DNA from: Rubripirellula lacrimiformis
GTDB taxonomy: Bacteria; Planctomycetota; Planctomycetia; Pirellulales; Pirellulaceae
Reading direction: 5' to 3'
DNA length: 64,000 nt
Assembly (NCBI RefSeq): GCF_007741535.1
Contig: NZ_CP036525.1
Location: 4,030,001-4,094,000 of the forward strand
A program made the translations under genes and the position numbers. Shown here in pieces: positions 129 to 12,756 of the stretch. The notes under the pieces are model-generated. The model saw only the letters and a list, made by a program, of their open reading frames with translations. It was not told the origin of the DNA and searched no databases. Position 1 is the stretch's first letter. Each line of letters opens with the position of its first letter.

Positions 129-2507
129 ATGAACCACAGTCCACGGAGATTGGCCGCAGTGCTCGGGGGGGGGCTGATCCGGACGCCTCCTTGCCGCAGA
201 ATCCGACCAGACGGCGCAATCGGTCTGGCACAGCAAGTTCCGGGCATCCAAAATTCGGCTGTGGGCGTCGTTGTCTCGATTCAGGAAGTAGCTTGGACGT
301 CGATCGGATGCATCGTTCCCGATTTTCTTTTGTCCTCAATCGTAGCGTCAGCCTTGACTCCATCATCGCAGTCTACCGAAGCAACGCCCGCTGGACCGGC
401 TTCCACGGTTCCTTCGGTCGATTCCCTGATTCGGGATCGCGTGGCTGCGATTGCTGACCAATCGGTCGATCGTGACGACTTCCATCGGCGGATGGCGGGC
501 GAGCTGTTGGAACATTTCCGCGGCGGGTTGATTGCCGTACTGGCGAATCATCTGCCAGGGCCGATGCTGATGGTGGCGGACGAACAGCTGGCAAAACGGA
601 TATCGCACCAAGATTTATCGGATCGCCTGCAAACCGCGGCCGTCGCTCCGGTCGCCTGCAACGTTGGTTTGGTACCATCACCGACCGATGCAACGGCCGG
701 CGCGACTTCGGTGACGGCACCCGCTGGATCGCCGCTGGATTCGATGGCTCGCGGGCTTCGAATCGAGATCAGTCCCGAACCGGCCCGTGCCGCGTGGTTG
801 CTGATGTATCCTTACCAAAGTTGCCCGCCCGCGGTGACTCAGGTCGAAGATCTTCGCGAATTGAAATGTTACGGCGACGCCGCACGCCAGATCATCCCAC
901 GATTTCCCGAACCTAGATCGTCTGATGCGGCGACCGACGGTGCGCCCCAACCGTCCCGCGTTCACCCTGGGATGACGGAACAAACGTTGGCGACGGCCCA
1001 GGATCCAGCGATGGCGATGAACCGTTCGCTTGGGCTGTTTCATCGTGACTTGAACCTCAACGCAACCTGCTATCGGATTGCAAACGAATCCAGACGCCTG
1101 CTGAAGTGCGACCGTACGACAGTCTTAATCGCTCGCGGTCGTCGATTTCGAGTCGCCGCAGTCAGCGGTGTGGCAGTGGTCGATCAGCGCGGCAACGCGG
1201 TCACTCGCGTCGAACAGATGGTCGATACAGCGGTGGTCATGTCACGTCCACTGATCGTGCCAAGCAGCGACCCATTGCCACCGCAAATCCAAACGCCGCT
1301 GGACGATTACTTCGACGAAACGGGGGTGACATCCGCGATCATTCTGCCGCTGCACAGCCCCACCGAACCTGGGGAAGACGTCGACGAATCGACCCACTTT
1401 GATCCATTCATTGGTGATGGACCGTGCATCGGCGTTTTGGTGTTGGAATACTTTACCGGGCAGGTCCCAAGCACGATCGAATCAGGGATGTCGGTGGTCG
1501 GGGTCGAAGCGACGTTGGCCCTTCGGAATTCGTTGGAACACCACAGCGTGTTCGGGTTACGTCTTTGGAAATCCATCGGTGGACTGTTGGGCGGACGCAG
1601 GCTCCCGTGGGTGATGTTGGCGTCTCTGGTTGGCGTTTGCCTGCTGATCGCGGCGATGGTCATCAAAGTCGACCATCACGTGATCGCCAACGGATCGGCC
1701 GAGCCGACCCTGCGACGTGATGTGTTTGCCAGTATCGATGGGATCGTCAAAAAATTACACGTTCGGGATGGGCAGTCGGTCAAGGCCGGCGACGTCCTGT
1801 TTGAACTCGAGAACGCGGAACTGGACAGCCGGGCCGAGTCGTTGACGGGTGAACTGGAAACGGCGCTTTCTCGCTTAGCTTCGATTCAGGCTGTACGACT
1901 TGGTTCGCAAGCGGACCCTGCCCAATCTGGTCGGCTTGCCATCGAACTTCGGCAAGTCGAAGGCGAACTGGCGGGGCTTCGTGGACAGCAAACGATCCTG
2001 GATACCCAGCGTCAAGCGTTGATCATCACCAGCCCGATCGATGGAACCGTGGTGGGTTGGCAATTGGAACAGCGGTTGACCAACCGTCCAGTTAGTCGCG
2101 GGAATTCGTTGGCGTCGGTTGTTGATCCCAGCGGTCCTTGGTCGTTGAAATTGAACATTCCTGATCGCGATGTGGGCGACGTGATCGAAGCCGCCCAAAC
2201 AGACCCCAACCTGTCGATCCAGTTCGCGGTGGCAACATTGCCGGAAGCATCGTACCTGGCAAAACTGGACCACTTGGCGACGGCGTCTCGTCTGAACAAG
2301 GAAGGCCAGCATGTGGTGGATGCGGACGCGGTCGTCGTCGTGCATCCTAACGACGTCGAAAACTACGATGCGTTTGATATCGATTCGATGCGCAGCGGTG
2401 CGGACGTGACCGCCAAGATCGCGTGTGGCCGGCGAACGGCATTGCGCAGTTGGTTCGGTGACGTGTTTGACTTTGTGCAACGAAACATCCTGTTCTACGT
2501 CAACTGA
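129..2507 (+). CDS. GAF domain / HlyD-family membrane fusion (adaptor) protein
   Basis: The frame encodes up to 792 residues. Around residues 297-455 there is a GAF-like sensor region (beginning near LFHRDLNLNATCYRIANE), followed by one membrane segment at about 493-515 (VMLASLVGVCLLIAAMVI) and a HlyD-type part with biotinyl-lipoyl half-motifs (FASIDGIVKKLHVRDGQSVK near 535 and ITSPIDGTVVGW near 636) flanking a coiled coil. This predicts a cytoplasmic sensor joined to an extracytoplasmic efflux adaptor. The start is doubtful: the first 65 or so residues include a nine-G run at 165-173 and look non-coding, so a TTG at 330 or a nearby GTG may be the real start. Only 20 bases separate it from the next gene, which also carries a HlyD part, so the two probably act in one export complex. 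The substrate is not visible. Confidence 0.75.
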   Translation: MNHSPRRLAAVLGGGLIRTPPCRRIRPDGAIGLAQQVPGIQNSAVGVVVSIQEVAWTSIGCIVPDFLLSSIVASALTPSSQSTEATPAGPASTVPSVDSLIRDRVAAIADQSVDRDDFHRRMAGELLEHFRGGLIAVLANHLPGPMLMVADEQLAKRISHQDLSDRLQTAAVAPVACNVGLVPSPTDATAGATSVTAPAGSPLDSMARGLRIEISPEPARAAWLLMYPYQSCPPAVTQVEDLRELKCYGDAARQIIPRFPEPRSSDAATDGAPQPSRVHPGMTEQTLATAQDPAMAMNRSLGLFHRDLNLNATCYRIANESRRLLKCDRTTVLIARGRRFRVAAVSGVAVVDQRGNAVTRVEQMVDTAVVMSRPLIVPSSDPLPPQIQTPLDDYFDETGVTSAIILPLHSPTEPGEDVDESTHFDPFIGDGPCIGVLVLEYFTGQVPSTIESGMSVVGVEATLALRNSLEHHSVFGLRLWKSIGGLLGGRRLPWVMLASLVGVCLLIAAMVIKVDHHVIANGSAEPTLRRDVFASIDGIVKKLHVRDGQSVKAGDVLFELENAELDSRAESLTGELETALSRLASIQAVRLGSQADPAQSGRLAIELRQVEGELAGLRGQQTILDTQRQALIITSPIDGTVVGWQLEQRLTNRPVSRGNSLASVVDPSGPWSLKLNIPDRDVGDVIEAAQTDPNLSIQFAVATLPEASYLAKLDHLATASRLNKEGQHVVDADAVVVVHPNDVENYDAFDIDSMRSGADVTAKIACGRRTALRSWFGDVFDFVQRNILFYVN

Positions 2508-2527
2508 TCGGTTGCCCGAAACCAACC

Positions 2528-4783
2528 ATGAATCAACTGCGCCCATTGTCGGTCCCGAGTTCGTCGGCTGGTCGACCAGCATCGAACAAAGTCGCGGCCA
2601 AGGGCCCTGCCCTGCTGGTGCGACGTCGGCCCGACTTGAAGGCCGTTCAGACAAACCACAAGCATGATTCGGCTGTCGTGATCAAGGATCCGATCGCCAT
2701 GAAGTACCACCGTATGCGGCCAGACGAATTTTTCGTTTGGGAACAACTCGACGGTCAGACGTCCCTGGAAAGCATCCGCAGTGCGTATGAATTGCGATTT
2801 GCACCGTACAAAGTAACGACGGCCGAATTGAACCAGCTGATCTTCCGGTTTCATCAGAATGGTTTGACGGTTTCGGACGTGTCGCTGCAAGGCGAACGTC
2901 TACGGGAACGATCGGTAAAAGAAAGGAAACAACGCTGGATGCAACACATCACGGGCGTGTTGTTCATTCGGTTTCCGGGTGTCGATCCCGAACCGCTGCT
3001 GCGACGAATCTATCCCTTGGTTCGGCCGCTGTTTTCGAAGTCGGGAATCGTCGCTTGGACTTTGTTGGCGATCGCCTCGCTGTACGTTTTTGCGATTCAC
3101 TACGATTCCTTCGTTAGCCAATTTCCGGCGATGGGGCAGTGGATCCAATTGAAGGCGGTTTTGATCTTGGCGGCTGTGATCGGTGGAACCAAGATTCTGC
3201 ATGAATTGGGGCACGCGTTGGTGTGCAAGCACTTTGGTGGCGAGTGTCACCAGATCGGCCCCATGTTGTTGGTGTTCACGCCGGCACTCTATTGCGACAC
3301 GTCGGATTCTTGGATGCTGTCCAATCGATTTCAGCGCGCTGCGGTCGGCTTGGCGGGCATTGCAACAGAGGTCATGTTGGCCGCGATTGCGACGATCGTG
3401 TGGGCATCCACTGCGGACGGGATTGTTCACTACACCGCCATGAATGTGATGCTGGTGTGTAGCGTCAGCACGTTGTTATTCAACGCCAATCCGTTGCTTC
3501 GCTACGACGGCTACTTTGTGTTGTCCGACCTGGTCGATGTTCCCAACCTTGCGGAAAAGTCGCGTCGGTTGTTGGCAGCCTATGCCAACGATTGGTTGCT
3601 AGGAGTCGACGAGCTTCCGACCGATCCGATGTCGACCGGCGAGCGAATTGGATTGTTGGTCTACGCAGTGGCCGCCTTTGTCTATCGCTGGACCCTAACG
3701 CTGGCGATCCTGTGGTTGGTGGGAACTCTATTGACCCCCTACGGTCTACAGTCCGTTGGACGACTGCTGTGCCTGTTCGCAACCGGCGGCATGTTGTTCG
3801 CCTTGTTTCGTGCTCCCGTCAAGTTTCTCCGCAACCCTGCTCGTCGAAAGAACATACGCATGAACCGCTTGATGACCTCGGCTGCTGTGGCGGTGGTGCT
3901 GTTGGTCGCCGCCGCCTACCCGATCCCGTCGGGTGTTTCGGTGGTTGCACGCGTCGTGCCGCATCAGGAAACGCCGCTGTTTGTCGCGACCTCGGGGATC
4001 CTGCGTGTCCTGCATCGTTCGCCCGGTGATCAAGTCCGTGAAGGCGACAAGATTGCGACGCTGGAAAATGCGGATGTTGAACTTCAATATGCGACGATTC
4101 AAGGACGCCAAGCAACCCAGGCCGCCAAAGTCGAATCGATGCAGCGTGCCGCGTTGGATTCGATCGAAGTTGCGAATGAACTGCCCAATCAAATTTCGCT
4201 GCTACGCGATCTGGACCAGCAACTAGAAACTCACGCCAAACGTCGCGATGGACTGGTGATCCAATCGCCTGCCGATGGGCAACTGATCGCCGCCCCGCGA
4301 CGGAACGAGGAACCTGACGCGGTTGCGAAAAATCGTCTGGTTAGCTGGTCTGGTTATCCGACCGATCCGCGGAACCAAGGTTGCTATCTGGAACCCGGTT
4401 TCGAATTGATGAGCATCGTTGGTGACGATCGTTGGGACGCCGAGGTGGTGCTGGACCAAAGTGAGGTGGAACGCATCTTCCTTGGCAGCGATGTCAAAAT
4501 GGTTCTGGAGGCGAAGCCGTCGGTAAAGCTACAAGGCCGTGTGACGGAGATCGCAAGAACCGAATTTGACGATTCCGAAAACGGCCAGCGGCGCGACGAT
4601 CCCAATGCCGCCCGTTCAGGGAACCCCTTGGCCACTTCGTACATGGTGCGGATCGAGCTGGATGAAACCGGTGACGCGCCGATGATTGTGGGCGCGGCCG
4701 CGGCCGCACGTATCGAAGCGACGGAAATCTCGGTGATCGGCCGAGCCAGTCGTTGGCTGAGCGGTTTGCTGCGGTTCCGCTAA
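2528..4783 (+). CDS. PqqD-like / site-2 protease (M50) / HlyD adaptor fusion
   Basis: The 751-residue product has three parts. Residues about 50-125 resemble a PqqD-like winged-helix fold, the type used as a precursor-peptide recognition element in RiPP systems. Residues about 170-450 form a multi-pass membrane M50 metalloprotease with HELGH at 225-229 and a second motif LRYDGYF with Asp327, the three expected zinc ligands. After a further membrane segment near 455-475 there is a HlyD-type lipoyl/coiled-coil part (SGILRVLHRSPGDQVREGDK; QSPADGQLIAAP). Known M50 enzymes cut within the membrane; the fusion to an adaptor suggests cleavage coupled to export, which is inference. It sits 20 bases after a GAF-HlyD gene and ends tail-to-tail with ligA, sharing four bases. 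A non-proteolytic transport role remains possible, but the active-site residues are intact. Confidence 0.82.
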   Translation: MNQLRPLSVPSSSAGRPASNKVAAKGPALLVRRRPDLKAVQTNHKHDSAVVIKDPIAMKYHRMRPDEFFVWEQLDGQTSLESIRSAYELRFAPYKVTTAELNQLIFRFHQNGLTVSDVSLQGERLRERSVKERKQRWMQHITGVLFIRFPGVDPEPLLRRIYPLVRPLFSKSGIVAWTLLAIASLYVFAIHYDSFVSQFPAMGQWIQLKAVLILAAVIGGTKILHELGHALVCKHFGGECHQIGPMLLVFTPALYCDTSDSWMLSNRFQRAAVGLAGIATEVMLAAIATIVWASTADGIVHYTAMNVMLVCSVSTLLFNANPLLRYDGYFVLSDLVDVPNLAEKSRRLLAAYANDWLLGVDELPTDPMSTGERIGLLVYAVAAFVYRWTLTLAILWLVGTLLTPYGLQSVGRLLCLFATGGMLFALFRAPVKFLRNPARRKNIRMNRLMTSAAVAVVLLVAAAYPIPSGVSVVARVVPHQETPLFVATSGILRVLHRSPGDQVREGDKIATLENADVELQYATIQGRQATQAAKVESMQRAALDSIEVANELPNQISLLRDLDQQLETHAKRRDGLVIQSPADGQLIAAPRRNEEPDAVAKNRLVSWSGYPTDPRNQGCYLEPGFELMSIVGDDRWDAEVVLDQSEVERIFLGSDVKMVLEAKPSVKLQGRVTEIARTEFDDSENGQRRDDPNAARSGNPLATSYMVRIELDETGDAPMIVGAAAAARIEATEISVIGRASRWLSGLLRFR

Positions 4784-6849
4784 GTGTCGCTGGATTCGCG
4801 CTGGTCCAACATCGCTTGAAGGTCAGATTCGCTGATCACGTTGACGCCTAATTCTTTGGCTTTGGCCAGCTTGCTGCCCGCTTTCTCGCCCGCCAGCAGG
4901 AAGTCGGTTTTTTTGCTGACGCTGGTCGATGCTCGTCCGCCCAGCTTTTCGATCAGGCCTTTGATCTCCGCGCGTTTGAACTGCTTCAGCGTTCCGGTCA
5001 CAACCACCGTTTTTCCAAAAATGGGGTTGTCGCCGACGATTGGTTCGGGCTCGGGGTCGGACAACTGGACACCGGCCGCTGCCAGTTCACGAAAGATGGT
5101 CTGGCCGGCGGTGGAGTGGCAAAATTCGGTGACGCTTTTGGCAATCGCATCGCCGATTTCGTGGATCGCCGCCAAATCTTCCGACGATGCGTCCATCAAT
5201 TGTTCGATGGTGTGATAGTCGTGCGAAATGACTCGGGCAACTCGCGGTCCGACATGACGAATCGAGATGGACGACAAGACGCGAGCCAGCCCGCGATTGC
5301 GGCTTGCGGCGATCCCCTTGATCAGGGCTTCGGCGTTGAGTTGACCGAATTGGACATCGATCATGGCGCCGTCTTTGCCCTTTCGTTGGCGAGGCCAGGT
5401 CAATTGGGCGACTTGATCGACCGTCAACCGATACAGGTCGGCATAGCTGTGAACCAGTCCATGCCCCAGTAACAGGTCCACCACTTCGTCCCCCAGGCCA
5501 TCGATGTCCATGCCGGTACGGCTGCCGAAATAGATCAGACGCTGACGCAATTGCGCTGGGCACTGTGGATTGGGACAACGGATATAGACGCCGCCTTCGT
5601 CACGCACCAGTTCACTGCTGCATTCGGGACACTTGGTTGGGAAGGTCCACTTGGTGAGTTCGCCTTGCCGCATGTGCTTTTCGACGCGGACGACTTTGGG
5701 AATGATCTTGCCCGCTTTTTCGACGATCACGGTGTCGCCTTCGCGGACGTCCAGCCGCTCGATTTCATCAGCGTTGTGCAGGGATGCCCGCGATACCGTC
5801 GTGTCGGCGATGTCGACCGGCGTCAGGTGAGCAACGGGAGTGATGGTGCCGGTCTTTCCGACCTGGACCGTGATTGAATTCAGCGTCGTCGTCGCTTCGT
5901 ATCGTTCGAACTTGTAGGCGATTAGCCAGCGAGGACTCTTGCTCCGCATGCCCAGCTTTTCACGCTGGGCAAAATCGTTGACCTTGAACACGATCCCGTC
6001 GACCTCGAAGGGCAGGTCAGGCATCTCGTCCTCTAGGATCGCCACCGCTTCGATTGCGGCCGCTGCGCCATCGAGCAACTGAACGTCTGGGGTGGGGGGA
6101 ATCCCCAGGTGTCCAATCTCTTCTAGGAAATCTATGTGTGTTGTGGATGTCAGCCCTTCGGTTTGACCGACGCCGTGACAGAAAAACCGCAACTTTCGCT
6201 GCGCCGCGATGGCCGGATCCAACAGCCGGATCGTACCCGCGGTGACGTTGCGAGTGTTTTTGAACGGTTCGTCCCCCGCCTCGGCTTGGCGAAGGTTCAA
6301 ATCCGCCAGATCGGCGTTGGTCATGTAGACTTCGCCACGCACTTCCAGCACGGCAGGAGGGGTTTCACCGCGAGTTGATAGTGGTAGGTCGCGCACGGTA
6401 CGAATGTTGTGCGTGATGTCGTCGCCCACCGTGCCGTTGCCGCGTGTCAGGGCCAATTTCATCTGACCGTTTTCGTAACGTACCGATGCCGCGACGCCGT
6501 CGATCTTGTACTCCATCACCCACTGGATGGATTCGCCTTCGAGCAACTTTTCGGTGCGGTCAAAGTACGCCTGCAGTTCCTGGCGGCTGTAGGTGTTGTC
6601 GATCGACAACATCGGGACGCTGTGCTGGACCTGGACCAAGTGTTCGACGGGAGCATCGCCGATTCGTTGCGTCGGCGAGTCGGCCGATCGTAGTTCGGGA
6701 TGCGCGGTTTCTAGTTGCTTCAGTTCCTGCAGCAAACGGTCGTATTCAAGATCCGTGACTGCAGGCTTGGCTTCGACGTAGTACAGATGGTCAAGACGAC
6801 GAACTTCCTGGCGCAGTTCTTGGACGCGTTTCGCAGCTGGTTGGGCCAT
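4780..6849 (-). CDS. ligA: NAD-dependent DNA ligase LigA
   Basis: The 689-residue protein seals nicks in duplex DNA using NAD+, in replication and repair. The adenylation lysine is K115 in EYKIDG, followed by the nucleotidyltransferase and OB domains. A four-cysteine zinc finger (CPEC...CPNPQC) sits near residue 410-435, then helix-hairpin-helix repeats and a C-terminal BRCT domain (NPIFGKTVVVTGTLKQFKRA onward). Length and domain order are those of a complete bacterial LigA. The open frame extends 17 codons further upstream to 6900, but the start at 6849 (MAQPAAKRVQELRQ) matches family N-termini. The stop overlaps the stop of the convergent M50 gene by four bases, leaving no room for a terminator between them. 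Confidence 0.97.
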   Translation of the reverse strand: MAQPAAKRVQELRQEVRRLDHLYYVEAKPAVTDLEYDRLLQELKQLETAHPELRSADSPTQRIGDAPVEHLVQVQHSVPMLSIDNTYSRQELQAYFDRTEKLLEGESIQWVMEYKIDGVAASVRYENGQMKLALTRGNGTVGDDITHNIRTVRDLPLSTRGETPPAVLEVRGEVYMTNADLADLNLRQAEAGDEPFKNTRNVTAGTIRLLDPAIAAQRKLRFFCHGVGQTEGLTSTTHIDFLEEIGHLGIPPTPDVQLLDGAAAAIEAVAILEDEMPDLPFEVDGIVFKVNDFAQREKLGMRSKSPRWLIAYKFERYEATTTLNSITVQVGKTGTITPVAHLTPVDIADTTVSRASLHNADEIERLDVREGDTVIVEKAGKIIPKVVRVEKHMRQGELTKWTFPTKCPECSSELVRDEGGVYIRCPNPQCPAQLRQRLIYFGSRTGMDIDGLGDEVVDLLLGHGLVHSYADLYRLTVDQVAQLTWPRQRKGKDGAMIDVQFGQLNAEALIKGIAASRNRGLARVLSSISIRHVGPRVARVISHDYHTIEQLMDASSEDLAAIHEIGDAIAKSVTEFCHSTAGQTIFRELAAAGVQLSDPEPEPIVGDNPIFGKTVVVTGTLKQFKRAEIKGLIEKLGGRASTSVSKKTDFLLAGEKAGSKLAKAKELGVNVISESDLQAMLDQRESSDT

Positions 6850-6980
6850 CGGTGCTCGGATCGTACGAAAAGACAAAGGTTCAGATTGATGAAAAGACAC
6901 TTGGCGGCCACATCGTGCCGTCTAAAACACTTTGTGGCAAGCGATCGGTCGGTTGTCGCACCGGTATCGCAGGGATGCCG

Positions 6981-8408
6981 CTAGCCGGCTGAATCCAACA
7001 GCCCATCGCGAACGAGCAGAGCTTTGATTTCCTGAACGATTTCTGGGTGCTGGTCGGAAACATCATCGTTTTCGCCAATGTCCTTGGTCAGATCGTACAG
7101 CCGCCATCCGCCCGCGGTCGTGTCCGGTCCGTTTCGTCTGGCCTTTCCAGCGGCATACTTCACCAGCTTCCAATTCCTGTATCGAACGGCGACCGACGTC
7201 TGCCCTTCCTGGCTGGCCCAGTACAAATAGGCATGCCGATCCTGGGCCGCGTCGCTGCCGAGCAACGTTGGTAGATAAGAGATACCATCGATCGCGGTCG
7301 CATCGTCAGTCCGATCGATACCGGCCAATTCGCAAGCGGTGGGCAGAAAATCCCAATTGGCCGAAGGCAAATCGGTGACGCGGCCAGCTTGGATCTTCCC
7401 TGGCCACCTGGCGATCATCGGAACGCGGATTCCGCCGTCGTGCAACGATCGCTTGTAACCGCGCAGTGGGCCATTGGAATCGAAGTACTCGTGCGTATGC
7501 GAGCCTTCGGAATGTGGCCCGTTGTCGGAAGTGAAGATCACCAAAGTGTCTTCGTCCAATCCAAGTTCGTCTAGCAAATCGAACAATCTCCCCACGTCTT
7601 GGTCCATCTTCGAAATCATCGCCGCGAAACCTTTCTCGGGGCTTGGCCAGTCGCGGTCGGCATAGATGCCGTGGCTGGGGACTTCCATTCCGTCTCCGGT
7701 GACTCGCCCGCCTTCATTATTGGCGTGCGGGATTGTCCAATGGATGTTCAACAGAAACGGATCGTCGGCGTGGTCACGGACAAAGTCCAACGCCGCTTCG
7801 GTCATCACATCGTGGGAATAGACCACTCGCTCGGATGACACACGCCCCTTAGCCTCGGCCGATTCCATCAACACATTGCCGACCAACGGCACCTGTGTTT
7901 TGTTCCGCCACAGAAACGGTGGGTAGTAGTTGTGCGCGTTCGATTGGTTCATGTACCCCATCCACATGTCAAAACCGTTGTGGTTGGGGTGACCGGGGTT
8001 ATCGATCTGCTCGGGCGTGTCGACGTGTCCAAGTGCCCATTTACCGACGCCTCCGGTAGCGTATCCGGCCGTCTTCAACCGCTGGGCCACGGTGGATTCC
8101 ATGCCTGACAAATTTCGAGCTCGGTTTCCGATCAATCCTGTGTGGCCGACATGTTGTCCGGTCCACAAAACCAAACGAGATGGGCGACAAACGGTGTGCC
8201 CGGAATAGTGATCGGTAAACCGAATTCCTTGGGCTGCCATCTGATCTAGATTCGGCGTCTGGATCACGTCCTGCCCATAGCATCCAAGATCTCCGTAACC
8301 CAAGTCATCCGTCATGATGTAGATGATGTTGGGCAATCGATCGGCTGCCTGGGACCAATTCAAACACAGGGCAAAGAAGAACAGCGTGACAGGCAGCGCG
8401 ATCCGCAT
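6981..8408 (-). CDS. exported type I sulfatase (arylsulfatase family)
   Basis: The 475-residue protein begins with a signal peptide (MRIALPVTLFFFALCLNWSQA) and is probably periplasmic. The sulfatase signature CRPSR starts at Cys74, the residue converted to formylglycine, and the metal-binding pair is Asp34-Asp35 in IMTDDLGYGD. Further metal-site sequence is VIFTSDNGPHSEG. Family members hydrolyse sulfate esters; planctomycetes carry many for algal polysaccharides, but this substrate cannot be read from sequence. No anaerobic-type sulfatase-maturating enzyme or glycosidase is adjacent. A run of eight C (sense strand) lies 15-22 bases upstream of the start codon. Confidence 0.95.
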   Translation of the reverse strand: MRIALPVTLFFFALCLNWSQAADRLPNIIYIMTDDLGYGDLGCYGQDVIQTPNLDQMAAQGIRFTDHYSGHTVCRPSRLVLWTGQHVGHTGLIGNRARNLSGMESTVAQRLKTAGYATGGVGKWALGHVDTPEQIDNPGHPNHNGFDMWMGYMNQSNAHNYYPPFLWRNKTQVPLVGNVLMESAEAKGRVSSERVVYSHDVMTEAALDFVRDHADDPFLLNIHWTIPHANNEGGRVTGDGMEVPSHGIYADRDWPSPEKGFAAMISKMDQDVGRLFDLLDELGLDEDTLVIFTSDNGPHSEGSHTHEYFDSNGPLRGYKRSLHDGGIRVPMIARWPGKIQAGRVTDLPSANWDFLPTACELAGIDRTDDATAIDGISYLPTLLGSDAAQDRHAYLYWASQEGQTSVAVRYRNWKLVKYAAGKARRNGPDTTAGGWRLYDLTKDIGENDDVSDQHPEIVQEIKALLVRDGLLDSAG

Positions 8409-8422
8409 GGTGGACTCACATC

Positions 8423-8430
8423 GGGGGGGG
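8423..8430 (-). other. C8 tract in the sulfatase leader
   Basis: Eight G on the plus strand read as eight C in the sense direction, 15-22 bases before the sulfatase start. Similar tracts precede the Gfo/Idh, DUF58, NiSOD and rnk genes. The rest of 8409-8690 shows no credible gene, only another G6 run near 8530. Function is unknown. Confidence 0.6.
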
Positions 8431-8690
8431 AGTGAACGAGGTGCCGCTAGAAGCGAGGTTGATCTTAACGCAAAGCGCTATGCTGGATGTACCTTCGATG
8501 CCAACCACCGGCACATGCCCCGGGTGAACAGGGGGGCTGTGATTGCCACTACCCGGGTAGGGCCAGACCGAACGCCGGGTGGGACTCGGCCGGCGCTTTT
8601 GATTCCGACACAGCAAAGACGCGGCCGGCGTGATGGTGGCCGAAACAATGGGCGAGTGGTGCGATGGACGATCGGTTGCCGTCTGCGCAT

Positions 8691-8721
8691 AAAAAAAGCC
8701 TGCTGAATCAGCAGGCTTTTT
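8691..8721 (-). terminator. Rho-independent terminator after tRNA-Glu
   Basis: A nine-base stem GCCTGCTGA/TCAGCAGGC with almost no spacer is flanked by A and T runs on both sides. It stands 30 bases past the 3' end of the minus-strand tRNA, where it would end that transcript. The symmetric A/T flanks would let it work in both directions. Confidence 0.88.
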
Positions 8722-8750
8722 CATGCCACGTTTCCGATGAAGGAAACGAA

Positions 8751-8823
8751 TGACCCCTACGGGACTCGAACCCGTGTTGCCGCCGTGAAAGGGCAGTGTC
8801 CTAGACCGCTAGACGAAGGGGCC
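8751..8823 (-). tRNA. tRNA-Glu (anticodon TTC)
   Basis: The 73-base minus-strand gene folds into a standard cloverleaf. The acceptor arms are GGCCCCT and AGGGGTC with discriminator A, the anticodon loop is CTTTCAC giving anticodon TTC, and the T arm contains GGGTTCGAGTCCC. The 3' CCA is not encoded, so it must be added after transcription. A terminator follows at 8691-8721. Confidence 0.97.
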
Positions 8824-9126
8824 GTCTGGCTTTTTGCAAAAGTCTCGAATGCCTCGCGGCGTTCTTCTCTCGTGCGAGGAGTGTTGTAGCCAAGATGCGT
8901 CTTGGTCGTCAACCCGTTGCGGAAGCCACCAGCAGATTTCTTTTCAGATTCAGCTGCGAGGTGAAAATGAACGCCGGAAGCCGGCATTGATGAGGCAACG
9001 GACAACACAGAAGTTGGCTGTTTTTCATCGGGCATATCGACACCGCGATGACCAACCTAGCGTGTCACTCTGGAAGTGACCGTGGGTTGTTCATCTACGC
9101 CGCCAGCACGCGACAGTCGGGTAGAC
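8824..9126. other. intergenic region between tRNA-Glu and csrA
   Basis: About 300 bases without a supported gene. A small hairpin GTCACT/AGTGAC lies near 9064-9080, but it has no T-run, so I do not call it a terminator. The promoter of tRNA-Glu should be here, but I cannot assign its boxes with confidence. Confidence 0.5.
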
Positions 9127-9363
9127 CTACGATTCGATGGGCGTGTCGCCCGTTTCGACCGGGGCATCGCCCGCTTCGATCGTGACGTCGCCTGCTTCCA
9201 GGCTGCGTTGAATCGCATCGTAAACTTCGCGGCGATGAACTGGCACTTCGCGAGGAGCTTCTACGCCCAGCCGTACCTTGTCGCCACGAATCTCCACCAC
9301 AACGATTTTGATATCGTTGTTGATGACGATGCTCTCATTCTTTTTTCGCGATAAAACCAACAT
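9127..9363 (-). CDS. csrA: carbon storage regulator CsrA
   Basis: The 78-residue protein is an RNA-binding global post-transcriptional regulator. It begins with the family hallmark [20 protein letters not shown] and contains the RNA-contacting stretch [18 protein letters not shown]. The last 20 or so residues ([21 protein letters not shown]) form an acidic tail longer than that of enterobacterial CsrA (61 residues). CsrA dimers bind GGA motifs in mRNA leaders and often block ribosome binding. The gene stands alone, with no flagellar or fliW gene beside it. Its own leader has two GGA triplets at the ribosome-binding site, so autoregulation is possible. Confidence 0.96.
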
Positions 9364-9376
9364 GTTCCGTCCTTTA
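9361..9376 (-). promoter_or_regulatory. csrA ribosome-binding site with two GGA motifs
   Basis: In the sense direction the leader reads AAAGGACGGAAC before ATG. The purine-rich Shine-Dalgarno stretch contains two GGA triplets, the core of CsrA binding sites. The sites are seen directly; their use by CsrA is inference. Confidence 0.5.
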
Positions 9377-10092
9377 TTTTAACCGGCCCGATTGGGTTAT
9401 TTTCGTTCTTGCCTACAGTCCCGATGCGTCGCAGGGTTTTCAGAATCAGACGCGCCCCTGCATCACCGCTACGTAGGCCGGTTGTGCCCGCGAATTCTTT
9501 CCGTGCGTATTCGCTGTTCCTTACACGCTCAACTCTAGGTCAAAAAATTGCCGCGTCAAGGAATCCTGCCTTGACAAAGGACAAATTCTGACCTTCTGCA
9601 CACGTTTTTGGCACACAACCGGTAGAACTATGCTGAATTGCTTGCATTTGGACAGTTTCACTCCGCGCAGCCGTGGAACATTCTTTGCCGGGGTGGCCTT
9701 TTGTGCGCTCCGCGCTACACTTCGCACAACGAGCGGTTCGCGGAACTTGCGGATTCGGCGGATCTAACGGTCTTCATCGACTTGCTTCGGATGGATCGAT
9801 TGCCCCCCAGCGGGCAGACGTTTGATCCAGCAGATTTGGATTGATCAGTCTTGGATCCAGTCGAACCGGGAACCGATTGCTCTTTGGCTGCGTCTTGAAC
9901 GGTAGGCAGTGATCGTCAAAGCATGTGTCGTCATCGTCGAATTTGGTGCCACTGTGCTGTTGATCGCCCAACGAAGCTTGCCAGTCACGCTAGACTCAGT
10001 TTCATAGAGATTTGATTTGTCTTGCTGAGCGGTTCTGAAAACTTTGCATTCGCCTTCGCTTTCAGCCTCTCCAAACCAGAAAGGTCGCCACC
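9364..10092. other. 730-base region without a recognised gene
   Basis: This is one of the longest gaps in the window. A plus-strand frame at 9638-9844 (68 codons) has no recognisable product or clear ribosome-binding site. A short dyad TCAAGG/CCTTGA lies at 9556-9574 and overlaps a TTGACA hexamer, but no convincing -10 box sits at the right distance. It should hold the csrA promoter and the promoter of the DUF2203 gene. A small RNA cannot be excluded. Confidence 0.4.
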
Positions 10093-10566
10093 ATGGTCCG
10101 AGCGATTCACCACAGCCAGGACAATTCCTCGGGGAAACTCGCTTCGGCGTTCACGCCCAGTGCTGCCACACGAACACTTCCACTGGTGCGACGCATCATG
10201 GCGGAGCTGATCGATTTAGATGAATCGATCAAGGCGCAACAGGAGCAATTGCGCGGGGTCGACGACTTGGTCGAAACGATCGACCACAAACCGTATTTGG
10301 ATGAACTGTCGGATGTTCGCGGTTCGCTGGAGGATGACGTCCGCCGGATGCAGTCTTGCATCGACGAATTGGCGTCCTTTGGCGTGCAAGTCCATCAGCC
10401 GTTTGACGGGTCCGTTGATTTCCCCGCTTTGTTGAACCGGCGACCGGTGCAACTTTGTTGGCACCCGGCAGATGACAAGGTGGAACACTGGCACGAAGTT
10501 GGTCAGTCGTCCAAGGATCGTCAGAAGTTGGATGCCGCCACGGTCGGAATGGTCGGCGGTTACTAA
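10093..10566 (+). CDS. DUF2203 family protein
   Basis: The 157-residue soluble protein matches the pattern of the DUF2203 family. Its N-terminal part has FTPSAATRTLPLVRRIMAEL, like the family's 'ANxxLPLVRxIxxDI' helix, a central coiled-coil helix follows, and the C-terminal part contains VQLCWHPADDKVEHWHEVGQ, equivalent to the family's 'CWRxGEPxIxYWHE' motif. No biochemical function is established for the family. The start at 10093 is supported by AAAGG about nine bases upstream. The gene's 3' end overlaps by four bases with the convergent TadE-like gene. Confidence 0.8.
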   Translation: MVRAIHHSQDNSSGKLASAFTPSAATRTLPLVRRIMAELIDLDESIKAQQEQLRGVDDLVETIDHKPYLDELSDVRGSLEDDVRRMQSCIDELASFGVQVHQPFDGSVDFPALLNRRPVQLCWHPADDKVEHWHEVGQSSKDRQKLDAATVGMVGGY

Positions 10567-10967
10567 CGAGCACCTTCGCGTCGAAGCGTCAGTTCACGCA
10601 CGATCGTTCTGCCCGCCACAAACTGGTTGGGCACAAAGCTGTTCGAATCGAGCGGGATTTCTAATCGAACGGTGACTTCTTCGGTTGCTGAGTTGATCGC
10701 ACCGGGGGTCACGGTCAGCCCCACGCTGTTGACGCCCATGGTGTTCATGATGCGAAGTGTTTCAGCGCGGACTTCGCCATTGGTAGCACCCGGGATGATC
10801 CCCATTCGGCACCCTTCGTAGACGGCGTTGTCGGCGGTATGCCGGATCATCGCAACGCGGACGAATTCCATCGCGGCGAAGAAGAACAGGAACAACAGCG
10901 GCGCGACCAGCGCGAATTCGACCGCGGTGGCGCCGGTGCGGCGTCTAGCTTTTCGTTTTAATTTCAT
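10563..10967 (-). CDS. TadE-like pseudopilin
   Basis: The 134-residue protein has a short basic N-terminus, then GATAVEFALVAPLLFLFFFA, the glycine-alanine/glutamate pattern of TadE-type pseudopilins, where a prepilin peptidase cuts before the membrane helix. The remainder is a small extracytoplasmic domain. It belongs to the Tad/Flp pilus minor-component family. It is the last of three minus-strand genes, after a TadG-like vWA protein and a second TadE-like protein. No Tad ATPase, secretin or prepilin peptidase is in this window, so the machinery must be encoded elsewhere. Confidence 0.85.
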   Translation of the reverse strand: MKLKRKARRRTGATAVEFALVAPLLFLFFFAAMEFVRVAMIRHTADNAVYEGCRMGIIPGATNGEVRAETLRIMNTMGVNSVGLTVTPGAINSATEEVTVRLEIPLDSNSFVPNQFVAGRTIVRELTLRREGAR

Positions 10968-11032
10968 GGTGTCGATTGCTTCACCGGTGCGAACGTTGGC
11001 GAGTCTAAAGTGGGAAGGCGAAGACGAGACGT

Positions 11033-12157
11033 CTACTGGGTCATCATGGTGCTAAGGGTCAGAGCGATTTCGCGATAGACTTCGATCAGTTCCAATCCGC
11101 TATCGGCATGAAAGTGTCGTCCGCCGCCAATCGATGCGACCTCTGCCATTCGTGTGGCATCCGCATCGGAACCGAAGGTAATCGTATGGATGGTCACGTT
11201 GGGACCTGCGATCGCGGTTGCGACGGTCCGCGGTTCCGGGCCTCGGTTGTGCCGTCCGTCGGTCATGATGATGTAGGTTTGTTCGACAAATTCGACACCG
11301 GCACTGGCTGACATCACATTGGCACCGGCTTGAAGTCCACGCGAAATGCTGGTGAATCCGCCGACACTTAGATCGCGAATGCCGTCGGAAATCTGTGTCA
11401 GGTCTTCGGTCAACGCGACGTCTTCGGTTGCGAATTCGCTATAGGAAGCCAGGCCAACCGCTTCGTCGACCGGTGTGCCATCAAGCGTGGCTACAAAGGT
11501 GTCGATGGCGGTGACCAGGTTGCCGAATTTGCTGCCAGCCATTGAACCACTGCGGTCAACGACCAAAACGATGTCGCGTTCGATGTAGGTGGCTGTTGAC
11601 GAAGTGGCGGGTTCAAAGAAGGGGACGCCGAACACGTTTCCGAAGAACAACGGCACGGGGCCGGATCGTGAACCGGTGGTGCGTCGACCATTGACCAGAA
11701 CGCTGTTGCGGGGCAATCCACCCTCGGTGAATGCGAACTTGCCGGTGGCTTCTTGGTTGCTGCTGCCAAAGACAAAGTCGCTGCCGTCCAACAACAGCGG
11801 TTCGCCGTTGACCGTGTTTGCGGCAGCAATTCGTTGACCTTCGGCGATCGCAGCGTCTTGGTCCAACGATTCGGCCAGGGTTGCGGCGGCGGCCTTGGAT
11901 GCTGCGTCGGTAGCGGTGCGGAGTTCGGTTCGGGAAAGATGCATTTGCGCGATGTCGACTGAAAACGCGACCGCGACCATGAAGCCGATCATCATCACCA
12001 CGATCAGGACCATCATCGCACCGCGGCGATCGATACCGCTGCGACGTTGGGTCTGCGTACTGTCGATACTGTTCTTAGCCGTCATTTCAAGTTGCATCAT
12101 CTGGGAAGGTTCCGAATTGCGTGGGGTGCATTCTGGTCTAGGAATCGTACGAATCAT
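11033..12157 (-). CDS. TadG-like protein with von Willebrand A domain
   Basis: The 374-residue protein starts with a roughly 45-residue polar leader, then RRGAMMVLIVVMMIGFMVAVAFSVDIAQ, a Tad-type N-terminal membrane helix as in TadG. A vWA domain occupies about residues 190-370, with the metal-ion adhesion motif DRSGSM and the downstream residues TSIS and TDGRHN. In related systems such proteins are minor components at the pilus base or tip and may mediate adhesion. The start overlaps the stop of the upstream TadE-like gene (ATGA), indicating translational coupling. Confidence 0.85.
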   Translation of the reverse strand: MIRTIPRPECTPRNSEPSQMMQLEMTAKNSIDSTQTQRRSGIDRRGAMMVLIVVMMIGFMVAVAFSVDIAQMHLSRTELRTATDAASKAAAATLAESLDQDAAIAEGQRIAAANTVNGEPLLLDGSDFVFGSSNQEATGKFAFTEGGLPRNSVLVNGRRTTGSRSGPVPLFFGNVFGVPFFEPATSSTATYIERDIVLVVDRSGSMAGSKFGNLVTAIDTFVATLDGTPVDEAVGLASYSEFATEDVALTEDLTQISDGIRDLSVGGFTSISRGLQAGANVMSASAGVEFVEQTYIIMTDGRHNRGPEPRTVATAIAGPNVTIHTITFGSDADATRMAEVASIGGGRHFHADSGLELIEVYREIALTLSTMMTQ

Positions 12158-12624
12158 TCCTTCACCATCACGACGCGGGCGGTCAATATGCGGTTGGGGA
12201 TGAACTGTCCGGCCAGCGGACTGTTGGTTAACGTTGGCGCGCTGACTTCGACGACGATTTCGTCGCCGCGTGACGCGTCACCAGCTTCGCCGTTGGGAAA
12301 ACTGATCGCAAAGTCGTTGACGCTGCGCGACGTCAAGATGTTGGTGCCTCGGGAAACCCCGGACGCGTTGTCGTTGCCGACGCGAATGGATTCACGAATC
12401 GATTCGTACGCAGCAACATTCAGAGATTGTTTTAGGAAGATGAAGCTGGATGCTTCGATGGCGCCAAAGACCAGCAACACCAATACCGGCAGACACACTG
12501 CGAATTCAACTGCCGCGACTCCGCGACGACCGGCCGCGGGACCACGCTTGGATGAACCGATCCGGCTTCGATTGGGGCGACGCATATGCAAACGATTGGT
12601 TGCCGATAGAGAATGGATTTGCAT
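12154..12624 (-). CDS. TadE-like pseudopilin, first gene of the tad cluster
   Basis: The protein carries a basic N-terminus followed by GVAAVEFAVCLPVLVLLVFGA, the TadE pseudopilin signature with the conserved glutamate after the cleavage glycine/alanine. A roughly 100-residue extracytoplasmic domain follows. It overlaps the TadG/vWA gene by four bases. Start is uncertain: ATG at 12624 is used here, ATG at 12585 and a TTG at 12672 are alternatives, and none has a clear ribosome-binding site. Product length is therefore 143-172 residues. Confidence 0.82.
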   Translation of the reverse strand: MQIHSLSATNRLHMRRPNRSRIGSSKRGPAAGRRGVAAVEFAVCLPVLVLLVFGAIEASSFIFLKQSLNVAAYESIRESIRVGNDNASGVSRGTNILTSRSVNDFAISFPNGEAGDASRGDEIVVEVSAPTLTNSPLAGQFIPNRILTARVVMVKE

Positions 12625-12756
12625 GGTGATCAGGGGAAGCCAGTGGGGATGATCGATGGAAGCGGTGGGCAATCCGGTCTGACTTTCTCAGTCAAACGCC
12701 GGCGGGGAGTCGCCGGCGCGGTCGACACGTCGGTGGGCCGGACAATTTCGCCTGGA

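Follow-up and report, generated by a model that had tools for sequence, protein, structure and literature searches.

A protease–adaptor fusion in Rubripirellula lacrimiformis as a likely component of a SecA-linked secretion module, with giant LEPR-XLL proteins as candidate cargo

Near the start of a 64,000-base stretch of the Rubripirellula lacrimiformis genome (hereafter the window: bases 4,030,001–4,094,000 of a single-contig genome of 8.54 Mb, NZ_CP036525.1), two adjacent genes encode a GAF-bearing HlyD membrane-fusion protein (gene A) and a fusion of a PqqD-like domain, an M50 site-2 protease and an HlyD adaptor (gene B). We suggest, with a probability of roughly 0.6, that the two genes form a copy, specific to this lineage, of the inner-membrane and adaptor part of a type I-like secretion module for giant proteins that operates without an ATP-binding cassette (ABC) transporter. 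It very likely belongs to a module of secondary SecA, HlyD and M50 proteins, and giant proteins with an LEPR-like N-terminal motif are the probable cargo.

A secondary SecA and further HlyD genes recur beside gene B

To describe the gene neighbourhoods we used the 80 best-scoring loci from named genomes, out of 560 confirmed stretches. These were mapped on stop-to-stop frames with profiles, which recovered gene B in all 80, and neighbours were counted within 8 kb of it. The recurrent partners are gene A, a separate plain HlyD adaptor gene (M), DUF3467, a TolC-like OEP gene and a SecA-like gene. In the 58 loci with at least 4.5 kb of upstream sequence, A is present in 47, M in 52 and both in 42, with DUF3467 in 20, OEP in nine and SecA in seven; across all 80 the counts are 56 for A, 65 for M, 22 for DUF3467, 10 for OEP and nine for SecA. 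The first seven SecA relatives seen there are 614–749 amino acids (aa) long, and the one scanned matches NCBIfam SecA models. The window copy has gene A joined directly to gene B, with no M, and so do close relatives of it (five orthologues; L063, L064).

At the level of whole genomes the association with SecA is strong. Gene B occurs in 30 of 118 genomes of the phylum, the present one included; a second SecA was found in 20 of these 30 vs one of the 88 B-negative genomes (Fisher p 2.8e-14), and outside the class of R. lacrimiformis in 11 of 20 vs the same one of 88 (p 5e-9). This count was curated by hand, split matches of one frame being taken as one gene (G030, G045, G090, G113), as were fragments on two contigs (G118), and a 663-aa SecA-like protein beside gene B plus a 281-aa fragment being taken as two (G048); in G080 the SecA search gave no match. 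In 10 phylum genomes (13 pairs) SecA follows gene B directly and in the same orientation, the matched stretches being some 65–515 bases apart. DUF3467 was found in 21 of the 30 B-positive vs six of the 88 B-negative genomes.

R. lacrimiformis itself has two SecA genes, at 7.14 and 6.23 Mb. The second (739 aa, 6.23 Mb) is unlinked to gene B, and its product shares 47–65% identity with the seven SecA-like proteins encoded beside A-M-B loci, as against 37% with the housekeeping SecA of the same genome; unlinked cases of secondary SecA are noted in the main text of an earlier study (Kamneva, Poudel & Ward, 2015; PMC4452313). M is present at another locus of this genome, at 8.04 Mb.

Two small families stand beside these partners. 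DUF3467 is a recurrent small gene of the module (e.g. L024:13390–13779, and six alphaproteobacterial loci) and could encode a cargo chaperone. A 235-aa family (c7), which had no match in a Pfam scan, adjoins the TolC gene in five of five loci of the type found at 2.07 Mb (L059–L062; L027:2625–3332).

Giant LEPR-XLL genes adjoin the operon in alphaproteobacteria

The candidate cargo comes from plasmids. A tblastn search with the 8.04-Mb paralogue gave 81 plasmid records, of which 15 neighbourhoods were examined. We call type 1 those with a GAF adaptor, SecA and DUF3467, and type 2 those with the order TolC-HlyD-HlyD-B. Ten neighbourhoods are of type 1, four of type 2 (L148, L149, L172, L175), and one has gene B alone (L171):

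Type 1: L145, L146, L147, L150, L151, L169, L170, L173, L174, L176
Type 2 (TolC and two HlyD before B): Azospirillum L149 and L172; E. coli plasmid L148; also the 3.71-Mb locus of R. lacrimiformis

In all nine type-1 alphaproteobacterial loci for which upstream sequence was available (L174, whose record opens within the locus, was left out) a giant reading frame precedes A-B, with DUF3467 between them in six; a SecA-like gene then follows in eight, Thalassospira L173 being the exception, as well as in L174, the L147 gene being annotated as a hypothetical protein and judged by comparison, and the unannotated L169 having been read with profiles. M and/or TolC are present in several of these loci, and Methylosinus L151 has the full set: giant, DUF3467, A, B, secondary SecA-like ATPase, M and TolC-type channel. 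The sequence [LMFI]EPRxLLxAD is found in six of six readable giant N-termini: in five it follows the annotated start, and in L155 it lies just before that start. For the remaining three giants the beginning of the frame falls beyond the stretch examined or across the record start. The NCBIfam LEPR-XLL model (NF012209) scores above its cut-off in all three giant N-termini scanned. We report this adjacency of LEPR-XLL giant genes to the operon as new, along with the motif-matching frames of R. lacrimiformis and the invariance of the gene B active site described below; no paper that ties the locus to LEPR giants was found in a search that did not reach most subscription journals and preprints.

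Where their N-termini were read, type-2 giants carry a variant motif: LEPRFMFDAA (L172), LESRQLFDGA (L156) and, in R. lacrimiformis, LEARLLYSAV. This last belongs to the 3.71-Mb locus (L030, 3702001–3722000), where a frame of 6,526 aa that bears LEARLLYSA and DUF4347 (7.2e-55) at its N-terminus runs on the minus strand from about 3709942, divergent from TolC-HlyD-HlyD-B, its first possible start lying about 185 bases from the TolC frame; the gene set resembles that on the E. coli plasmid. In Indioceanicola (L175) TolC was not seen, and the upstream frame of 2,714 aa showed no motif. At L171, LEPRFMFDAA occurs on a frame some 10 kb from the lone gene B. Two giants, those of L155 (NZ_CP123586.1) and L171 (NC_013860.1), seem to have been annotated with starts too far downstream, since LEPRLLLAAD and LEPRFMFDAA, respectively, lie in frame just upstream.

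A motif profile of 30 columns, built from 13 N-termini and biased to R. lacrimiformis and alphaproteobacteria, matches 30 frames of the R. lacrimiformis genome at E ≤ 0.01, not all of them independent because seven of its own profile-building sequences are included; eight are at least 5,000 aa long (5,272 to 9,894), and the LEARLLYSAV frame is not among the 30. Motif matches occur in 14 of the 118 phylum genomes, and are more frequent with gene B (11 of 30) than without it (three of 88; p 1.2e-5), also outside the class of R. lacrimiformis (six of 20 vs three of 88; p 0.0012).

Gene B joins a recognition-like domain to a protease and an adaptor

The two genes have the following features, all on the forward strand.

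129–2507 (+): gene A, GAF-transmembrane-HlyD membrane-fusion protein (Pfam/NCBIfam; transmembrane part judged by eye; start uncertain)
1053–1451 (+): gene A, GAF domain, residues 309–441 (PF01590, 2.5e-6)
1719–2228 (+): gene A, lipoyl/HlyD_3 part, residues 531–700 (Pfam)
2528–4783 (+): gene B, PqqD/RRE-like domain, M50 site-2 protease and HlyD adaptor, 751 aa (Pfam, NCBIfam, AlphaFold)
2627–2875 (+): gene B, predicted PqqD/RRE-like domain, about residues 34–116, three strands then three helices (model, Foldseek)
2990–3847 (+): gene B, M50 membrane protease domain, about residues 155–440 (Pfam, NCBIfam, AlphaFold)
3200–3214 (+): gene B, HELGH zinc site, residues 225–229 (both histidines and the glutamate invariant in 80 of 80 relatives)
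3488–3514 (+): gene B, NPLLRYDGY motif with D327 (N321 and D327 likewise invariant in the 80)
3923–4729 (+): gene B, HlyD/AcrA-type adaptor, about residues 466–734 (Pfam; Foldseek)

A sequence-only reading of the window had placed the two genes 20 bases apart, as they are (spacer 2508–2527), and had read A as GAF-HlyD and B as M50-HlyD, with which Pfam and NCBIfam agree. Gene A matches Biotin_lipoyl_2 (residues 532–561) and HlyD_3 (633–700). Its first 60–90 codons are doubtful and may not be translated, because its orthologues in the genus are shorter (586–752 aa, n = 5) and later in-frame starts exist at 330, 354 and 441.

In gene B, Pfam matches cover M50 (215–292) and HlyD_3 (616–682), the M50 score being 25.9 bits against a cut-off of 27.2 and rising to 29.5 when neighbouring stretches of the frame are included. 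The model for daptide proteases (NCBIfam daptide_HExxH, NF041824) spans residues 43–434 with E 3.8e-54 and 184.3 bits against a cut-off of 300; gene B is therefore akin to that family from the PqqD-like region through M50 but falls outside it. The M50 active site noticed at the outset is indeed intact: H225, E226, H229, N319, N321 and D327 are kept in every one of the 80 relatives, which were chosen without regard to the motif (an earlier set, 64 of 64, had partly been picked by HExxH), and 13 divergent relatives likewise show no change in the catalytic residues. An AlphaFold model of the whole protein (54 sequences, mean pLDDT [predicted local distance difference test] 87.6) begins with a domain of strands and helices, continues with a helical membrane part and ends in an adaptor part, which matches MacA, MexA and AcrA in Foldseek with E of about 1e-12.

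The N-terminal domain is the part that could recognize cargo. Recognition elements (RREs) that bind the leaders of ribosomally synthesized and post-translationally modified peptides (RiPPs) have a winged-helix fold, and this fold is seen in the predicted model of the gene B domain. When residues 34–150 were modelled alone (49 sequences, pLDDT 80.5), the nine top Foldseek matches in the PDB were TbiB1 with leader (five chains), the sactipeptide maturase 5why/5wgg (three) and a lasso B1 with leader, 6jx3 (one). These nine matches have E 0.005–0.09, probability 0.95–1.00 and identity 12–16%; the chains matched are RRE-bearing, RREs being present in TbiB1, the TfuB1 lasso B1, sactipeptide maturases, SkfB and PqqD. 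Pfam PqqD had no match to the window protein alone, and matches the aligned N-terminal domains of 36 of 49 family members (E ≤ 0.1, best 1.1e-5); in a separate scan it matches all four type-1 proteins. Together the Foldseek matches and the PqqD matches in relatives support the RRE fold at low sequence similarity. The structure prediction thus bears out the PqqD/RRE-type fold proposed from sequence, and it supports a new proposition, that the N-terminal domain of gene B folds like RiPP leader-recognition elements.

Distribution of gene B

The PqqD-like, M50 and HlyD fusion is not rare, contrary to the initial impression that its three elements are seldom seen together. It is in 30 of the 118 phylum genomes, as counted above; relatives occur in all 22 genomes of the genus (R. 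lacrimiformis included), and five copies are present in R. lacrimiformis, each with at least one HlyD gene upstream. Five further genomes of the genus carry a close orthologue of the window's gene B, at 54–67% identity; the closest named records are likewise planctomycete, from strain K23_9 (59%) and Stieleria sedimenti (55%). In the gene B tree the window copy groups with other planctomycete copies, and the 3.71-Mb copy with type 2 (support 0.81). The 2.23-Mb paralogue (L028:12856–15006) retains HELAH and NPLMRYDGY.

A proposed export route and its alternatives

Planctomycetes are known for very large genes, and we propose a route by which some of the products could leave the cell. Giants in the cytosol would start with a basic segment that closes on the LEPR-XLL motif, LE-x-R-x-LL-(A/S)-x-D. 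Gene B would bind this segment through its RRE domain, as the RREs of RiPP systems bind leaders, a SecA-like ATPase would push the unfolded chain and presumably powers export, and three HlyD adaptors with TolC would form the conduit, gene B itself being part of it and receiving the chain. The M50 centre may cut the leader within the membrane as the chain enters, and the GAF domain would regulate. That the RRE reads the motif and the M50 centre cleaves is plausible, if somewhat short of an even chance. More tentatively still, the whole may amount to a distinct secretion principle that needs neither an ABC transporter nor a cleavable Sec signal peptide of the classical kind, in which the RRE reads LE-x-R-x-LL on giant surface proteins, an adaptor-fused site-2 protease cleaves, and a dedicated SecA drives the chain through the HlyD-TolC conduit.

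Several observations weigh against the module and its cargo as drawn here. M, SecA, DUF3467 and TolC are all missing from the window locus, and no giant gene with the motif was found next to the pair; the window copy would have to borrow the missing parts from other loci, or it may have changed role. A second SecA was not found in 10, DUF3467 in nine, and a motif match at E ≤ 0.01 in 19 of the 30 B-positive genomes, and the co-occurrence tests for SecA, DUF3467 and the motif take no account of shared ancestry. Three motif-positive genomes are without gene B (G071, on a 42-aa frame; G115; G131). A regular-expression search through the window and 1.86 Mb of sequence around planctomycete gene B loci gave three motif-bearing open reading frames (ORFs; L030, L048, L096), not above the genome background. 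As to recognition, none of the 538 PDB matches of the N-terminal domain in Foldseek reaches E ≤ 0.001, the 2.23-Mb paralogue lacks most of the PqqD/RRE region, and Pfam PqqD matches none of the four type-2 proteins scanned, the giants near three of which bear the variant motif. Finally, in a crude comparison the hydrophobicity of motif N-termini (−0.13 to 1.75) overlaps that of secreted HlyD proteins (0.09 to 2.49), without clean separation, so that ordinary Sec export of some giants is possible.

This raises the question of whether the same gene set could work in another way. One alternative, unlikely in our judgement, keeps the module and makes the M50 protein mainly a membrane pore or scaffold rather than a protease, as suggested by Kamneva et al. 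(2015), whose text predicts transmembrane helices and proposes a membrane pore; it fits this view that the loci showed no further candidate for an inner-membrane channel. A pure pore, however, would not need the catalytic residues that are kept in all 80 relatives and in the 13 divergent members.

A second alternative, which we consider improbable, is the one closest to the sequence-only reading: maturation and export of a RiPP-like peptide, with the RRE binding a small precursor, the M50 centre cutting it and HlyD exporting it. It draws on the predicted RRE fold and on the nearest NCBIfam model being that of the daptide intramembrane metalloprotease, followed among protease models by YydH/LiaK, yet the daptide score is 184 against a cut-off of 300, and the genes expected of such a system do not convincingly recur near the 80 relatives. 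ABC-like genes within 8 kb of gene B were matched by regular expression in two of the 80 loci, and an ABC-ATPase-like cluster (d8) occurs in five of the 80 stretches; radical-SAM searches gave one match, which looks spurious; and among 2,665 short ORFs the best cluster spans five loci and resembles GC-rich shadow ORFs. The recurrent neighbours are instead SecA, TolC, DUF3467 and, in alphaproteobacteria, giant genes. Of the earlier proposal the export role is supported and the small RiPP-like peptide is not: where a precursor and transporter were sought in related genomes, a candidate cargo of another class (the giants) and a motor (SecA) co-occur in place of a small precursor.

Least probable is envelope-stress response or small-molecule efflux, with GAF-HlyD sensing a ligand, M50 performing regulated intramembrane proteolysis and the SecA link incidental: the GAF domain, an HlyD part like MacA, MexA and AcrA, and a window locus itself devoid of SecA and TolC would suit it, but the strong SecA linkage and the giant genes in the same alphaproteobacterial operons speak against it, and no resistance-nodulation-division (RND) or major facilitator superfamily (MFS) pump is among the Pfam-scanned neighbours, pumps not having been searched for systematically.

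If the proposed export of giants by a SecA/HlyD/M50 module is correct, it offers a testable route for these proteins together with a hypothesis for the function of the LEPR-XLL motif, and it extends leader recognition by RREs from small RiPPs to very large proteins.

Surroundings of the pair

Gene B is followed tail-to-tail, with a 4-base overlap, by a gene for an NAD-dependent DNA ligase (Pfam; window 4780–6900, − strand). Further along, at 10563–12672 (−), are three TadE/TadG-type pilus-like genes, one with a von Willebrand A-like part, as judged from translations only. In the 20 kb upstream of the pair, nine ORFs and one more were scanned with Pfam, part of those present, and all belong to other families; that no ABC transporter is visible, as first remarked within the window, holds for these scanned surroundings, with the nine upstream genes all of other families.

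Comparison with known systems

The closest precedent is the locus of GAF-HlyD, M50-HlyD, HlyD and secondary SecA described by Kamneva, Poudel & Ward (2015), to which the main text assigns no role. It has the same gene set as the present module, sometimes with OEP, in overlapping phyla, and there too an ABC transporter was not found; the paper also names Methylobacterium extorquens AM1, an alphaproteobacterium with the operon in linked form. The window copy differs in that M50-HlyD stands beside GAF-HlyD without an M and SecA of its own. In the main text of that paper, to which the count was confined (figures and supplements being outside it), PqqD, DUF3467, LEPR and giant have no occurrences. 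As far as that text goes, the 2015 locus had neither a cargo nor a recognition domain, and the link made here supplies candidates for both. LEPR-XLL itself is mentioned in passing in two papers, once for a Vibrio protein of about 8,000 aa.

Among proteases of RiPP pathways, the daptide protease (NF041824) shares the PqqD-like and M50 stretch 43–434 with gene B, and the YydH/LiaK epipeptide protease (NF058609) the M50 part, gene B falling under the cut-off in both cases. Gene B differs from both in the HlyD adaptor fused to it, and a recurrent precursor, ABC or radical-SAM gene was not seen by simple scans. Its N-terminal domain is predicted to have the same three-strand, three-helix fold as the RREs of RiPP systems, here fused to a protease–adaptor. 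The adaptor fold is shared with HlyD, MacA, AcrA and EmrA, as is, in some loci, the TolC partner. In contrast to type I secretion and tripartite efflux, the module has a SecA-like ATPase and an M50 protein rather than an ABC, RND or MFS component, and its proposed signal is N-terminal, unlike the C-terminal signal of type I secretion.

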